From a virus, in the IMG/VR virus record IMGVR_UViG_3300042542_000330, positions 1-21,317 of that record: a stretch of 21,317 nucleotides of DNA; one strand, written 5' to 3'. The position numbers were made by a program, and so were the translations under genes. A model generated the notes under the pieces. It did not search any database. It was not told where the DNA came from and was given only the letters and a program-made list of their open reading frames with translations. This document shows positions 1,512 through 12,313 of the stretch, in pieces (the first letter of the stretch is position 1; each line of letters opens with the position of its first letter).

Positions 1512-4151
1512 TTACTCTTGCGGCTCTTGCACAGCGCCGCGAGCAGCGCCTGTTGTCAGGTCTTGCACAGCGTCAGCGACCCACTGGATGCCGTACTTGC
1601 GGCCCACGTCGATGGCGTCTTGGATCTTCTTCTGGTCAAACCCTGCGGCGCGGGGCTGGACAGCCTGGAAGACCTTGACGGCGTCGGTTGGGTTGAGCAG
1701 CAGCTCTTTGAGACGCGCTTCGGTGGCCTCAGACGCCTTCTTTGCCCAGAACTTGCTGAACAGCGATGTGATGGCGTAAGTTGCGCCAGACACAGGGTTG
1801 TAGATGCGCGACAGAATTTGCTCAGGTGGTACGCCAGTCAGTTGCTCGATAGGCGTTTTCGGTACTGTCTCGCCCCTGAACGGCACGTTGGTGATGTCCC
1901 TGTTCAGACGCCCTGACACGGTCACAAAGTCCTGCACCTTCTGAGCGTAGGTTGGGCCAAAGACGCGGTTGAACACCGCAGCGTTGTTGCGGTCGGTCAG
2001 CGCAGCGACAGGGTCTTTTGCGTTGATCAAGTCGTCCAGCATAAACGCCCGTACAGCATTGACGGAGTCCTTGTTCGCGCCGTACTGCTGCATGAACTTG
2101 TTGGTGAACTTGATGTCGCCGTACATCTTGCTGACCAAGTCCTGAGCGCTGCCCATTCCCTCGGCGCTGATGATCTGGTCGCCAGCCACGCGCTGGAACT
2201 CGGTGTTCAGGCGGGTGCGCTGGGCAATCAACTGTTGCACGTCTTGCGTTGCGGTTTGCAACTCGTCACGCAGGCCAGGCACCAGCGACACGCCGCCTTC
2301 GTTCTTCTTGAGCCACTTGGCCGCCGCCTTGGGGTCCAAAACGTCGTTCTTGAGCGCGGCGTTGGTAAAGCTGTCCAAGAAGGCCGAGCGCACCAGTTGC
2401 GTACCCTCTGGCCCGACGGCGTTGATGAACTCGGTGACGTTGGACTTGTTGCCGATGATCGCGGGGGCGATCTGCTCCACAAACTTCTTACGGTCCACAG
2501 CCGCCAAAGTAGCGGTGTCAAACGGCAGACCGACCTTTTGCAAATACGCCTTGTCAGCGTTGCGGTAGGCAGTGACAAACTCAGGGTCCAGGCTGTCGAT
2601 GTGACCGCCGACGCGCTGCTTCAACTCAGACAGCAGTCGAATGTCGGTCGGCACGTCAGTCTTGCTCAACTGGCGGTTGATCTCGCGCTTGAGCGAGTCC
2701 AAGTCCTCAATCGTGGCCGCGCTGAACTCTCTGCCGCCTGGCGTCATCGGAGCGCCTTCGGCGGTCAAGATGGCGCTTGGCTCGGTAGTTGTAGGACGGA
2801 ACCGCGCTTGCACCCGGCTGTAGATGGACGGGAACGTCTTGAACACGTCAGACGCACGCTCGCCAGCCACAAAGTTATAGATGTCGTCCACCGATCCGGC
2901 GGGCAGTTCCACATTCTTGGTTTTGGCGATGTTGAACGCCTCGGTGTACAGCGGCTTGACCTCTGCGTAGGCCGCTTGTTCCTTTTTCGCAACCAGATTC
3001 GACACACGCTGGCCGAACGCGGTAGGGTCAACCGACTGGCTTTTGTAAGCGTCGGCGATCTGCTCGTCCAGCGAGCGAACGCGGCGGGCTTGCGCTTTGG
3101 CCAAGTCAGGGCCAGTCGCCGTGACGACAGCCTTGGTTGGGTCGCCAAACAAGCGAATCTGGTTTTGCAGCAGCGCGGTCTTAGCGGCCTCGTACTGGTT
3201 GCCGTACTGAGCGCGGAATACCGGATCGCGCGACGACAGGTTCTGGATGAAGTTGTTGATGACCGGGTTGTCGGCCAGCAGGGCAGACACGGGCATCTGC
3301 ACCGCAGCGCCACCAGGCGCTTTGAGAGACACGCCTTGCTGCGCTTTGGCAGCGTCGGTCAGCGTCTTCATGAAGTTGGGGTCGGCAGCGCCTGCTGCGA
3401 TGAAGATGTTGCTGATGCGGTTGTCCACATCCTTGAGCAGTTCGTCCTCTGGGACTGTACCGCGCACCTTGTCCCATTGGCCCTTGACGACATCAAAACC
3501 TTTGCCTGCCAGCGGAGCGCCCTTCAAGGCAGTTCCCAAGCCGTAGGCCGAGCCAGCGCCGCCTAACAAGCCGCCGGTAATCTGACCGACTGTTGCGCCT
3601 GTTTCGCCGCCGAGTTTGCCGCCAATTGCGCCGCCGGCCTGACCACCAGCTTCAGCGCCAGCGCCGATGACGACTTGCTCCGCAGGGCGCATGGCCGCTT
3701 GGCCGAACATCCCCATGCGGCGAGTTGCTGCCAGCGCGGGGAACAAGTAGTTTTCTGGCGACGCAGCCGCTTCAATGCCAGCGGCTAGGATTCGCTGCCC
3801 ACCAGTTGTAGGGGCAGCGCCTGTGCTGCCCAGCGCCTGCATGGTTGGCTGGCGCACGGCCTCGCGGCCTGTACGGTAAGCGTCAACCACACCTGCTGCG
3901 GGGGCTTGCGCGGGCGCTCCAGCCGCACGCATACCCAACTCTAGGGGGTTGACACCCAGACGACTCAGCGTGTCGAACAAGACATTGGCTGTGCCCGACA
4001 CCATGCCTGCGCTGCCTGCCAAACCTTTACGGGCGGCTTCTGCTGCGATTGCACCTGTGCTTGGTGCTGGCGCTGTTGGCTCTTGGTCCAGAACAAAGCC
4101 AGAAGGCAGCGCCGATTCTGGGTCTAAAACAAATCCTGCTGGTAGTGCCAT
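1512..4151 (-). CDS. large internal virion / ejection-type protein
   Basis: 879 residues; it ends the late operon. The N-terminus has two copies of LPxGFVLDxE (about 3-11 and 15-23), then an Ala/Pro-rich linker. A glycine-zipper stretch follows at about 162-210 (GGQAGGAIGGKLGG, then GGLLGGAGSAYGLG), of the kind that packs helices in membranes. The remaining 650 residues are largely helical with low aromatic content. No lytic transglycosylase motif is visible. Position at the end of the late operon after nozzle and fibre genes, as for T7 genes 14-16, suggests a core protein ejected into the envelope. The ribosome binding site (GAGG, seven bases upstream) lies inside the previous gene's end. 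Function is inferred from position and composition. Confidence 0.75.
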   Translation of the reverse strand: MALPAGFVLDPESALPSGFVLDQEPTAPAPSTGAIAAEAARKGLAGSAGMVSGTANVLFDTLSRLGVNPLELGMRAAGAPAQAPAAGVVDAYRTGREAVRQPTMQALGSTGAAPTTGGQRILAAGIEAAASPENYLFPALAATRRMGMFGQAAMRPAEQVVIGAGAEAGGQAGGAIGGKLGGETGATVGQITGGLLGGAGSAYGLGTALKGAPLAGKGFDVVKGQWDKVRGTVPEDELLKDVDNRISNIFIAAGAADPNFMKTLTDAAKAQQGVSLKAPGGAAVQMPVSALLADNPVINNFIQNLSSRDPVFRAQYGNQYEAAKTALLQNQIRLFGDPTKAVVTATGPDLAKAQARRVRSLDEQIADAYKSQSVDPTAFGQRVSNLVAKKEQAAYAEVKPLYTEAFNIAKTKNVELPAGSVDDIYNFVAGERASDVFKTFPSIYSRVQARFRPTTTEPSAILTAEGAPMTPGGREFSAATIEDLDSLKREINRQLSKTDVPTDIRLLSELKQRVGGHIDSLDPEFVTAYRNADKAYLQKVGLPFDTATLAAVDRKKFVEQIAPAIIGNKSNVTEFINAVGPEGTQLVRSAFLDSFTNAALKNDVLDPKAAAKWLKKNEGGVSLVPGLRDELQTATQDVQQLIAQRTRLNTEFQRVAGDQIISAEGMGSAQDLVSKMYGDIKFTNKFMQQYGANKDSVNAVRAFMLDDLINAKDPVAALTDRNNAAVFNRVFGPTYAQKVQDFVTVSGRLNRDITNVPFRGETVPKTPIEQLTGVPPEQILSRIYNPVSGATYAITSLFSKFWAKKASEATEARLKELLLNPTDAVKVFQAVQPRAAGFDQKKIQDAIDVGRKYGIQWVADAVQDLTTGAARGAVQEPQE

Positions 4152-7437: not shown

Positions 7438-8982
7438 TCAGGACATCTTGCCATCTTTGGATTGGATTTCAATCCGCTGAATCGACAGCGGTGCGCCGTT
7501 GATGTTGGATTCGTATCCGGTTTGCACGATTTTACCGCTGCCAGTGGCTTGAACGCTCAAAGTTTGCAAGGCCACGCCATCAGAATACTGGGCGATGTTG
7601 TATTCGCCAATTCCGTACTCAGACACACCTTGCGTTGGGATCAGCGCGTTGGCCGACAAGTAGTTGGTGCTGAAGTCAAAACCCCACTTCATCGTCACAA
7701 ACTGGTTCGTGCCGCCGATCACCACCACCTTCAGGCGCTTGAGCAGCGACGTGACGTTGGCGTTACCCAAGTCAGCGTGGTTGGTGAAATACTGCATCCG
7801 GTAGGCCGAAGTGTGGTCTTGGTAGGTGCTGTACTTGCCGATGTAGCCATTCTTGCCGATCAGCACGTCACCGTTGCGCCGCGAGAGCAGCGCCGTTGGC
7901 TCAATTGAGTTCCATGTAGTGACGCGAAACGAGCCGTCTTGCAACTGCACGCGGGTGTCAAAGCAGTACACCTCCTTGACCGACGGCAGCGTCAGCAGAT
8001 AGAACGCCCCTGCTTCTGAGTACACCGACTTGATGTTGGCCAGCGTCTCGCCAGCCACAATCGACATGAAGTCGCTGCGGATGTTCTTGGACAGATCGCC
8101 CAGCGGGGCTGACTTCTCAACAATCGTCCTGGCAAACGACCGGATGCCCGAGTTGGACAAGAACAAGATGTCCTTGCCTGTGCTCTGGATGGAGTCGCGG
8201 GCGATGCAGCCAATGCCGCCCACCGTGTCGCTCAGGCTCATTGTGGCTGGCGTCGTAGCGTTGGCGTAGACCAGAATCTGGCGGCTGCCGAAGATGATCA
8301 GGAAGCTGTTGTGCGCTGCCAAGCCGGTGATGTTGTCTGCGCCGTTGGGCCACACACGGTCGATGTTGAGCGAGCCAGCGGTGCCAGTGCTCCAGATGTG
8401 GCCAGCCAACAAGTCAGAAAAGAACACCGTGACGTTGTCGGTGGCAGTATCTGCAACCCACAGCCGACCAAAGGCCGACAGCACGATGTTGCCCGAAGGC
8501 ACAGTGCCGACGTAGCCAGTCTTCTCGGTAACGCGGCGATAGGTGGTCGTGCTGACGGCTGGATCGAAGATCAGCGGGTCGTGGCCCGCTTGGAAGAAGT
8601 AAGTGATGCCATTGAGCGAAGCCACCGACCAGTTACTGGCCGTGATCGTCGGCGCTGTACCCCCGCCCCCATATGTCAGTTCAGACACGGCGTTGGAGCC
8701 GTCCAGCTTGAACAGCTTGTTGTTGCCAGCAAACAGGATCGTCAGCGTGCCGTCAGCCTGCACCAGCTCATGGATGACGCCCACGTTGTTGGCCCCGAGG
8801 TCGCCAGACGACGAGTTGACCCGTGCCCAGCCTTTGCGTGCGCCGATGCGACCGTACTGGTCAATGATGCAGTTCGTCGCGACCAAAGCAAAGCCAGCCG
8901 CCAAGTCCAGCGGCGAGTCTTGCGTGTTCAGGCCAAAAAAGCCTGGCGCTGAGATGCTTGCGGTCTGGAGGGTTTGGCTCAT
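7438..8982 (-). CDS. tail tubular protein B / nozzle protein (T7 gp12-like)
   Basis: 514 residues, beginning with an ATGA overlap with the adaptor gene. The N-terminus GFFGLNTQDSPLDLAAGFALVATNCIIDQYGRIGARKGW is characteristic of phage nozzle proteins. Blade-like beta repeats follow (GITYFFQAGHDPLIFD, AFGRLWVADTATDNVTVFFSD, NSFLIIFGSRQILVYAN), indicating a beta-propeller. It is shorter than T7 gp12 (794 residues). It forms the distal tube of the short tail through which DNA exits. The adjacent adaptor gene supports the call. Confidence 0.85.
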   Translation of the reverse strand: MSQTLQTASISAPGFFGLNTQDSPLDLAAGFALVATNCIIDQYGRIGARKGWARVNSSSGDLGANNVGVIHELVQADGTLTILFAGNNKLFKLDGSNAVSELTYGGGGTAPTITASNWSVASLNGITYFFQAGHDPLIFDPAVSTTTYRRVTEKTGYVGTVPSGNIVLSAFGRLWVADTATDNVTVFFSDLLAGHIWSTGTAGSLNIDRVWPNGADNITGLAAHNSFLIIFGSRQILVYANATTPATMSLSDTVGGIGCIARDSIQSTGKDILFLSNSGIRSFARTIVEKSAPLGDLSKNIRSDFMSIVAGETLANIKSVYSEAGAFYLLTLPSVKEVYCFDTRVQLQDGSFRVTTWNSIEPTALLSRRNGDVLIGKNGYIGKYSTYQDHTSAYRMQYFTNHADLGNANVTSLLKRLKVVVIGGTNQFVTMKWGFDFSTNYLSANALIPTQGVSEYGIGEYNIAQYSDGVALQTLSVQATGSGKIVQTGYESNINGAPLSIQRIEIQSKDGKMS

Positions 8983-10705: not shown

Positions 10706-10921
10706 TTAGATGATTGATTCAACTGTTTTGCGGGGGCGACCCATGCGCTTTACAGGTGTTGGGGCCGTCATCGGTAACTCTTTGCTGGCCTCTTGGACCT
10801 GCACTTGCTCGCCTTGCTCATCGACCAAAACGTAGCCGCCGTGGCCGCGCATCGAGTCAATGTCGTGCTGTAAAGTGAACGTCACCGTATTACCACTTGC
10901 CAAACAACGAAATGTAGCCAT
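10706..10921 (-). CDS. small hypothetical protein with AT-hook-like tail
   Basis: 71 residues. The N-terminus MATFRCLASGNTVTF and HDIDSMRGHGGYVLVDE form a likely compact domain. The C-terminus carries KRMGRPRKT (about 58-66), similar to the GRP core of AT-hook DNA-binding peptides. The GGAG ribosome binding site overlaps the end of the upstream terminator T-run, so transcripts that read through are immediately translatable. Family unknown. Confidence 0.65.
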   Translation of the reverse strand: MATFRCLASGNTVTFTLQHDIDSMRGHGGYVLVDEQGEQVQVQEASKELPMTAPTPVKRMGRPRKTVESII

Positions 10922-10930
10922 AAAAACTCC

Positions 10931-10958
10931 AAAAAAAAGGGGGCGCGTGGCCCCCTTT
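10931..10958 (-). terminator. intrinsic terminator, strong
   Basis: On the minus strand a perfect 9-bp stem (arms 10950-10958 and 10936-10944, GC-rich core GGGGGC/GCCCCC) with a 5-base loop (10945-10949) is followed by eight T (10931-10938; the first three also lie in the stem). This is a textbook Rho-independent terminator, placed between the 108-residue gene and the next gene. Confidence 0.88.
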
Positions 10959-10962
10959 CTGT

Positions 10963-11289
10963 TTAGACTACCGCCCGAGCAACGATGAGTTGCAAAGTGG
11001 TAGACGCCAAGTTCACCGAAGACCCGGTTGGGTTGTAGGTCACGATTGTCACGGTGTTGGCAGCGGAAACATAAGCCCGTTTGACCAGGCCAGCCTCGCT
11101 GACGCCATGTGAAAAACCGAGAACCATGTCGCCCAGCGCAACGCCGGGGACAGTCACTGTGTCTGTATCTGTCGCACCGCCAGCAACAGCGCCAGCGTCA
11201 AGAGTACAGGTCACATCCCAAGTGTCTGTGAACAGACCTCGGAATTGGTCATTCCCGCGACGGGAAGTAATTGCGGATGCAGCAGCCAT
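10963..11289 (-). CDS. small putative capsid-associated protein
   Basis: 108 residues with a strong AAAGGAG site eight bases before ATG. Sequence after residue 20 is beta-rich with VPGVALGDMVLGFSHGVS, YVSAANTVTIVTYNPTG and NLASTTLQLIVARA. Comparable small proteins directly downstream of coat genes often act as head decoration or stabilising proteins. This one is bracketed by two hairpin terminators, so it is transcribed with, but less than, the coat gene. Capsid role is inferred. Confidence 0.65.
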   Translation of the reverse strand: MAAASAITSRRGNDQFRGLFTDTWDVTCTLDAGAVAGGATDTDTVTVPGVALGDMVLGFSHGVSEAGLVKRAYVSAANTVTIVTYNPTGSSVNLASTTLQLIVARAVV

Positions 11290-11302
11290 TTGAATCTCCT
11301 TT

Positions 11303-11332
11303 AAAAGACGCCCCCGGCTTGTGACCGGGGGC
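11303..11332 (-). terminator. hairpin terminator after the major capsid gene
   Basis: On the minus strand an 8-bp GC stem (arms 11325-11332 and 11310-11317, GCCCCCGG/CCGGGGGC) with a 7-base loop (11318-11324) is followed, after three bases, by TTTT (11303-11306). The short T-run suggests partial termination. It sits just downstream of the coat stop codon, the place of the terminator after gene 10 in T7. Confidence 0.75.
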
Positions 11333-11338
11333 TATTCA

Positions 11339-12313
11339 TTAGGCTGGTACAGCCAAGGCGTAAGCGGCGGAAGCGTTAGCAGCCGACGAAGAGGCGGCAG
11401 TACGCAGGGCCTTCACGCCGTACAGAGTGTCAGCAGTGAACAGGGTACCGAGGTATTCCTGCTTGTACTGAGTCTGCGAACGGATGCCCATCTGCTCAAC
11501 CAGCACCATCGCGTCGCGGTGGCCCATCAAGCAGATACGGTCAGCGCCGCTGTTACCAGCGCCGGTGTCGGCGTTGGAAGAAGCGAACACAGCCATACCG
11601 TAGAGCTGACCGATTTCACCGTTGCGGATAGCGTCGCCGTTGCCGATGAACGCTTGCTCGGTGTAACGGGCCAGACCCATCAGGGTGTTGCGGCTCGAAG
11701 GAGGGATCAGGAAGAAACGACCGTCCATAGGAACGTCGTTGTCGTCCAGGCGCTGGATGGTGCGGCGGATAGCAGCGTCAGTCAGAGCAGCAGCGTTGGA
11801 AGTCGAGCTGTTGTAGGCAGTCGTACCGTCGGAACCAACGTAAGCCTTTGTGGAGCTGGCGCTGGTTGCGTAGTCGTCTGTACCCACGGTCGCGCCGTTG
11901 AAGGCACGGCCCAACTGGACCAAGCTGGTGTCGATGCGGCGGGCCAAGGCATAACCGGCGTCTTCTGTGTAGAAAGAACGCAGCGATGTCAGGGCTTGCA
12001 CTTCAACGATGTCTTCGATCAAGCGGCTGTATTCGTAGTGTTGGTTGATCAACACTTGAATGTTGGTGTCGCTCTCTGCAATCAGAGTCACGGCATCAGT
12101 AGCGGCTTTGGCCGAAGCGTTGCCACGGGCTGGGCTAGGGATGTTGACGGTATCACCCTTCTTGCCTTTGAAAGACATCTTCTTGACCAGGTTGGCCAAG
12201 ACGAGGTTTTTCTTATAGGCAGCAACGATTTCATCAGACCAGATTTCTGGGATGAAGTTCGCTGCGGAGGTGGTGGTTACCGAGTTGGTTGGGGAAAATG
12301 CTTGGTTTGCCAT
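11339..12313 (-). CDS. major capsid protein
   Basis: 324 residues, preceded by GGAG eight bases from ATG. The N-terminus FIPEIWSDEIVAAYKKNLVLANLVKKMSFKGKKGDTVNIPSPARG is typical of podovirus HK97-fold coat proteins. Other hallmarks are DTNIQVLINQHYEYSRLIEDIVEVQA, RFFLIPPSSRNTLMG (PPSSR at the P-domain strand) and the C-terminal LMGHRDAMVLVEQMG. The scaffold gene lies directly upstream and a terminator directly downstream. No fused decoration domain seen. Confidence 0.9.
   Translation of the reverse strand: MANQAFSPTNSVTTTSAANFIPEIWSDEIVAAYKKNLVLANLVKKMSFKGKKGDTVNIPSPARGNASAKAATDAVTLIAESDTNIQVLINQHYEYSRLIEDIVEVQALTSLRSFYTEDAGYALARRIDTSLVQLGRAFNGATVGTDDYATSASSTKAYVGSDGTTAYNSSTSNAAALTDAAIRRTIQRLDDNDVPMDGRFFLIPPSSRNTLMGLARYTEQAFIGNGDAIRNGEIGQLYGMAVFASSNADTGAGNSGADRICLMGHRDAMVLVEQMGIRSQTQYKQEYLGTLFTADTLYGVKALRTAASSSAANASAAYALAVPA

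Follow-up and report, generated by a model that had tools for sequence, protein, structure and literature searches.

Introduction

Leaky terminators placed after the coat gene are a known means by which phages make more coat than tail protein. The locus examined here raises the question of whether two hairpins, one behind the coat gene and one behind the gene that follows it, could grade the late transcript of an uncultured phage in this manner. The sequence analyzed (hereafter the window) is a virus record of 21,317 bases whose late genes are encoded on the minus strand, in the order coat gene, 108-residue gene, 71-residue gene, several tiny lysine-rich frames and tail genes. The features under discussion, in window coordinates, are the following.

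11339..12313, minus strand: gene of the major coat protein (324 aa), matching phrog_267 (major head protein) at E 2.5e-49 and PF19821 at E 3.1e-12
11310..11332, minus strand: H1, a hairpin with a 9-bp stem and the loop CACAA, beginning 6 nt past the coat TAA (11341-11339)
11303..11309, minus strand: tail of H1, GTCTTTT, a weak T-run (from sequence)
11296..11302, minus strand: AAAGGAG, the Shine-Dalgarno sequence of the 108-residue gene, immediately following the H1 T-run (from sequence)
10963..11289, minus strand: 108-residue gene (from the ORF list; predicted beta-sandwich; 42-sequence alignment)
10936..10958, minus strand: hairpin H2, six G-C and three A-U pairs, loop CACGC, 4 nt past the stop codon (TAA, 10965-10963) of the 108-residue gene
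10931..10938, minus strand: T-run of eight after the G-C core of H2, the first three pairable (from sequence)
10927..10930, minus strand: GGAG, the Shine-Dalgarno sequence of the 71-residue gene, immediately following the H2 T-run (from sequence)
10706..10921, minus strand: 71-residue gene, adjoining H2 here and lying directly 3' of the single hairpin in relatives without the 108-residue gene

Structure of the two hairpins

A sequence-only reading of this DNA had described a GC hairpin with a weak T-run just past the coat stop, and its place and orientation are borne out. H1 reads GCCCCCGGT-CACAA-GCCGGGGGC (11332-11310, minus strand), and its T-run consists of four T only (11306-11303), reached after a 3-nt delay behind the stem. 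The isolated hairpin gave an RNA fold of -20.7 kcal/mol, and the 61-nt gap holding it gave a fold z of -4.04, which was equalled by 0 of 200 shuffles.

H2 reads AAAGGGGGC-CACGC-GCCCCCTTT (10958-10936); the 61-nt gap holding it folded with a z of -3.80, again equalled by 0 of 200 shuffles. It had been read as a 9-bp hairpin followed by eight T. The hairpin, its place and its orientation stand, but the count does not, as three of the T were used twice. Five U are free, or eight if the A-U pairs stay unformed. Eight T at H2 are untypical among the near relatives of the window: L002 has CCCCCTTTCTAC, and L006 likewise.

The two structures were picked up by different searches. A simple terminator scan detected H1 and missed H2; the compact-hairpin scan of this analysis detected H2 and missed H1 at its threshold because the H1 T-run is weak. 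A search of the window against Rfam 15 gave 0 matches at gathering score.

Genes around the hairpins

For the 108-residue protein, a beta-sandwich was predicted by AlphaFold2 with a mean pLDDT of 84.8, and a weak likeness to the C-terminal parts of tail spikes was observed by PHROG search and structure comparison. Comparison of the fold with the PDB gave nothing at E <= 0.001 (the best match, at 0.014, was a phage depolymerase), so no function is claimed for this protein. It is probably structural and, judging from the model, could be a head decoration protein. Neither the 108-residue protein nor the DNA of the hairpin region had a match when compared with cultured phages.

The 71-residue protein has an N-terminal start that is well conserved among relatives and gave no match in Pfam and PHROG searches; near its end stands GRPRK, which we take to be an AT-hook-like motif. 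The tiny lysine-rich reading frames are found 3' of this gene (window 10694-9958), the last of them, of 97 residues, matching DUF6321 (PF19846, E 5.8e-22). Elsewhere in the window, two long frames with collagen-like G-P-T repeats (21306-19097) probably encode tail or head fibres. At 1508-1512, the late genes of the minus strand and the genes of the plus strand end nearly back to back, and the listing of the hairpin scan held no terminator-like hairpin at this junction.

Conservation among relatives

A coat-protein relative scan yielded 80 loci of 70-96% identity, 77 of them with a readable coat stop; L023, L074 and L075 were left out because the contig ended before the stop. Removal of near-duplicates and of loci with less than 60 nt past the stop (e.g. 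L047, L066) gave a set of 50 loci, window included, which was scanned with the compact-hairpin criterion from -1500 to +2500 nt about the coat stop.

In 49 of these 50 deduplicated loci, a compact hairpin began at most 50 nt past the coat stop. The exception was L053, where the coat TAA is replaced by TAC and the next in-frame stop falls within the loop of the hairpin, which is itself intact. Through this change (around 3960-4000 of that locus), the coat would be extended by a few residues. When a usable T-tail was also counted, hairpins were found at 0-50 nt in 27/50 loci and, in two neighbouring bins at 350-450 nt, in 19 and 3 of 48. Outside the positions behind the coat and 108-residue genes, the whole set contained one hairpin with a usable T-tail, at 1650.

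Two more scans extended these observations. A hairpin was present behind the coat gene in 34/35 deduplicated loci of the further set, and it was kept in four of the five loci whose coats are 25-35% identical to the query. Around the 108-residue gene, in loci obtained by a separate scan, a hairpin was found upstream in 76/77 loci and downstream in 78/78, the latter number being that of the loci where the gene was located (it was not located in L128 and L149). As the further sets share some contigs with the first 80-locus set, they represent an extension and not a fully independent replication.

In six of the 50 loci (L060, L065, L071, L073, L077 and L080), the coat gene is directly followed by the 71-residue homologue, with one hairpin between them. 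The further set showed the same arrangement in L201, L209, L215 and L218; since L201 lies on the contig of L080, these amount to at most nine separate cases. Their single hairpin is of the H1 type (C-first) in some and of the H2 type (G-first) in others. When both genes are present, the polarity of the arms is fixed, H1 being C-first in 42/42 loci and H2 G-first in 42/42. For this polarity, the only explanations that we offer are shared ancestry and a need to avoid direct repeats.

Selection on the stems and T-runs

The arms of each hairpin are matched to each other. H1 stems made of their own arms averaged -18.0 and permuted ones -11.8, and for H2 stems the means were -13.5 and -11.3; in both cases 0 of 1000 permutations were as good. 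Within a clade of 12 sequences, double changes were found in 5/11 H2 pairs and 3/7 H1 pairs, and the covariation scores (0.258 for H2, 0.238 for H1) exceeded all 500 shuffles and every slid register. In alignment A3, some stems were moved by one base by MAFFT, which lowered the pair counts there.

A T-run of at least four followed H1 on the coding side in 42/50 loci and on the opposite strand in 0/50. For H2, the numbers were 25/41 and 11/41 (L070 was left out of this count), so that the strand bias is less clear than for H1. As a background, a T-run of at least four was found behind 50 of the 2228 hairpins lying within open frames (window plus ten relatives).

This background also bears on the idea that H1 and H2 are chance hairpins of a G+C-rich genome, devoid of function. 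Compact hairpins are indeed common in coding sequence, as the 2228 found inside open frames indicate, but those studied here are position-specific (49/50 and 34/35 loci), their stems covary and their T-runs are far above background, which makes a chance origin highly improbable. H1 and H2 are real, conserved and terminator-like.

Proposed mechanism

The explanation that we prefer, with a probability of roughly 0.6, is that the late minus-strand transcript carries a pair of leaky intrinsic (Rho-independent) terminators, H1 and H2. According to this scheme, a polymerase that has moved past the coat gene would sometimes leave at H1, giving a coat mRNA without the later genes. A polymerase passing H1 would transcribe the 108-residue gene and would sometimes leave at H2, and the remaining polymerases would go on to transcribe the 71-residue gene and those of the tail. 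The outcome would be mRNA amounts that fall stepwise from the coat gene to the 108-residue gene and then to the tail genes. H1 would leak through its short and delayed T-run, and both hairpins would leak through a ribosome positioned at the stop codon that precedes them by 4-6 nt. The purpose would be head-to-tail stoichiometry.

The hairpins themselves, their orientation, their conservation, the covariation of their stems and the near absence of comparable sites nearby are in favor of terminators, and it is from such sequence features that we infer termination, leakiness and the stoichiometric purpose. The graded expression put forward in the sequence-only reading appears plausible on these grounds, for a gradient whose size is not readable from sequence.

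Predicted terminator strength and T-run-poor copies

The strength of the two putative terminators was estimated by two scores: score 1 is a simplified d'Aubenton-Carafa-type formula and score 2 a fuller sum. By score 1, the window gave -8 for H1 and 47 for H2, and values above 0 were obtained for 22/50 H1 and 16/42 H2 copies; T7 Tphi reached 22 on the same scale. By score 2, H1 and H2 of the window gave 15 and 57, and 43/50 and 35/42 copies were above 0. Ordinary terminators elsewhere in the relatives score 30-50; most H1 copies therefore fall below them. On sequence, H2 looks the stronger terminator of the two, and the larger step, if a gradient exists, would therefore be expected after the 108-residue gene.

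A minority of copies have kept the stem with the T-run nearly absent (for example L032 and L061 at H1; L032, L036, L040 and L058 at H2). An intrinsic terminator should not tolerate near-loss of its T-run. Either these T-run-poor copies work in another way, or less of a T-run suffices in their hosts. Stems that are kept and covary despite a poor T-run would suit hairpins acting at the mRNA 3' end as stabilizers or processing points: the stems would block 3'-to-5' exonucleases and the coat mRNA would outlive the remainder, termination being slight or absent. The resulting mRNA gradient would appear identical in plain RNA-seq. A stabilizer, however, has no need for T-runs restricted to the coding side, as they are at H1 (42/50 versus 0/50), and we consider this explanation doubtful.

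Stop-codon spacing and translation

Both candidate terminators stand very close to the stop codon that precedes them. For H1, the distance from stop to stem had a median of 7 nt and was 6-12 nt in 48/50 loci, the outliers being L053, whose stop falls within the hairpin, and a locus with a distance of 1 nt. For H2, the G-run began 4-7 nt past the stop in 41/42 loci. In distant relatives, the hairpin starts 14-47 nt past the coat stop (5/8 records scanned). A general rule by which terminators behind capsid genes abut the stop codon was considered and dropped in view of these distant relatives.

The effect of such spacing is documented in E. coli by an excerpt of PMC4824070, in which the terminator tR2 shows less than 10% termination at 5 nt past a stop and becomes fully active at a distance of about 27-30 nt. 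According to the same excerpt, a terminator 5-6 nt past the stop is nearly silent as the ribosome covers the stem, and termination was hardly altered when the upstream gene was translated at half the rate. H1 and H2 lie within this ribosome-silencing spacing and would therefore be leaky and translation-sensitive in a host with coupled translation. They could be strong where the host polymerase runs ahead of the ribosome. Since a spacing of 4-7 nt nearly abolishes termination in E. coli, the degree of termination at H1 and H2 would hinge on the host.

These data lend some weight to a gating by translation, in which the hairpins would be purposely held 4-12 nt past the stops. A ribosome close behind the polymerase would cover the hairpin base and let transcription pass, so that heavy translation of the coat gene would open the downstream genes and slow translation would shut them. 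The short and narrow spacing, the 14-47 nt seen in distant relatives and the silencing of tR2 at 5 nt are in line with such a gate. Against it, the compact gaps of phage genomes could alone impose a short spacing, the gate would depend on the degree of transcription-translation coupling in the host, and termination responded little to halved upstream translation in E. coli (PMC4824070, excerpt). We therefore regard purposeful gating as unlikely.

A broader scheme, to which we give little credence, is a gene-by-gene ladder. Each hairpin would lie in the ribosome footprint of a stop codon, and translation of the coat gene, and of the 108-residue gene where present, would set the number of polymerases that arrive at the tail genes; each hairpin would travel with its gene, and the opposite polarity of the two would prevent deletion of the 108-residue gene between direct repeats.

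Promoters, polymerase and host

No sigma-70-like site was found on the minus strand between the coat gene and the 71-residue gene, nor, on the same strand, in the 21-nt gap before the coat gene. T7-type RNA polymerase (PF00940) was found in 0 of 11 relatives, the T7 control giving an E value of 9.9e-110. It was likewise found in 0 of six further relatives, including the contig of L115, which is identical around both hairpins. The records of these relatives may be incomplete. Short gaps, the lack of sigma-70-like sites at these places and the negative result for T7-type polymerase in the 17 relatives suggest that the late genes are transcribed as a single unit. The polymerase result also makes the host polymerase the likely reader of H1 and H2.

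A promoter-like site with 10/12 matches was nevertheless found on the minus strand at 10200-10171, inside the DUF6321 gene and between H2 and the tail genes. It could be a second source of tail mRNA, without readthrough. Such sites are, however, no more frequent in the window than in shuffles (8 against 8.0). Together with the low scores, the T-run-poor copies, the atypical eight T of the window at H2 and the stop spacing, this site counts against the reading of H1 and H2 as terminators.

Two clues to the host were considered and set aside. Purine bias as a sign of host coupling (A+G of 0.518 in coding sequence and 0.468 in the coat gene) was not decisive in the light of an excerpt of PMC13323073. 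A single locus on a 3150-base contig in an Actinomycetota MAG was too weak for naming a host.

Comparison with known systems

In the filamentous phages f1 and M13, which are unrelated to the phages studied here, a terminator behind gene VIII stands between a coat protein made in great abundance and a minor one that is scarce.

The closest precedent is Tphi of T7. The sequence-only reading had named a partial terminator after the T7 coat gene, and this is correct according to the T7 record and an excerpt of PMC5592923, by which T7 genes 11 and 12 are expressed by Tphi readthrough only. In vitro, Tphi causes 54% termination by T7 RNA polymerase (PMC11347151, excerpt). As at H1, a hairpin with a T-run stands directly behind the major capsid gene, the Shine-Dalgarno sequence of the next gene lies close behind the T-run, and the downstream genes are reached by readthrough, which is here a proposal made from sequence. 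In contrast to the pair described here, Tphi is a single site and is read by T7's own RNA polymerase. T7 gene 10 has its own promoter; the coat gene of the window is preceded by a 21-nt gap with no sigma-70-like site on the minus strand. Tphi lies 167 nt past the 10A stop and 9 nt past the 10B stop. The parallel with T7 is incomplete because T7-type polymerase was not found in the 17 relatives.

Two other phages offer related arrangements. In LUZ100, a terminator immediately 3' of the MCP gene was mapped by ONT-cappable-seq (PMC10134795); LUZ100 differs in that it is T7-like, encodes its own polymerase and has a local promoter, and a single site is named in the excerpt of that source. In SPP1, a siphovirus of Bacillus subtilis and thus a different kind of phage, a program-predicted terminator is placed at 8775-8815, with MCP gene 13 ending at 8777 (PMC6316719, excerpt). 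As here, the hairpin and T-run abut the stop of the MCP gene and precede a small gene, gene 14, which starts at 8828.

Significance

The post-capsid attenuator, best known from T7, appears to occur in a two-step form across a large group of uncultured phages, among which T7-type RNA polymerase was not found in 17 relatives. If the link to translation is true, the ratio of head to tail proteins in these phages would be tied to the translation of the coat gene itself. The hairpin pair in addition provides a practical annotation rule for the late operons of such phages.
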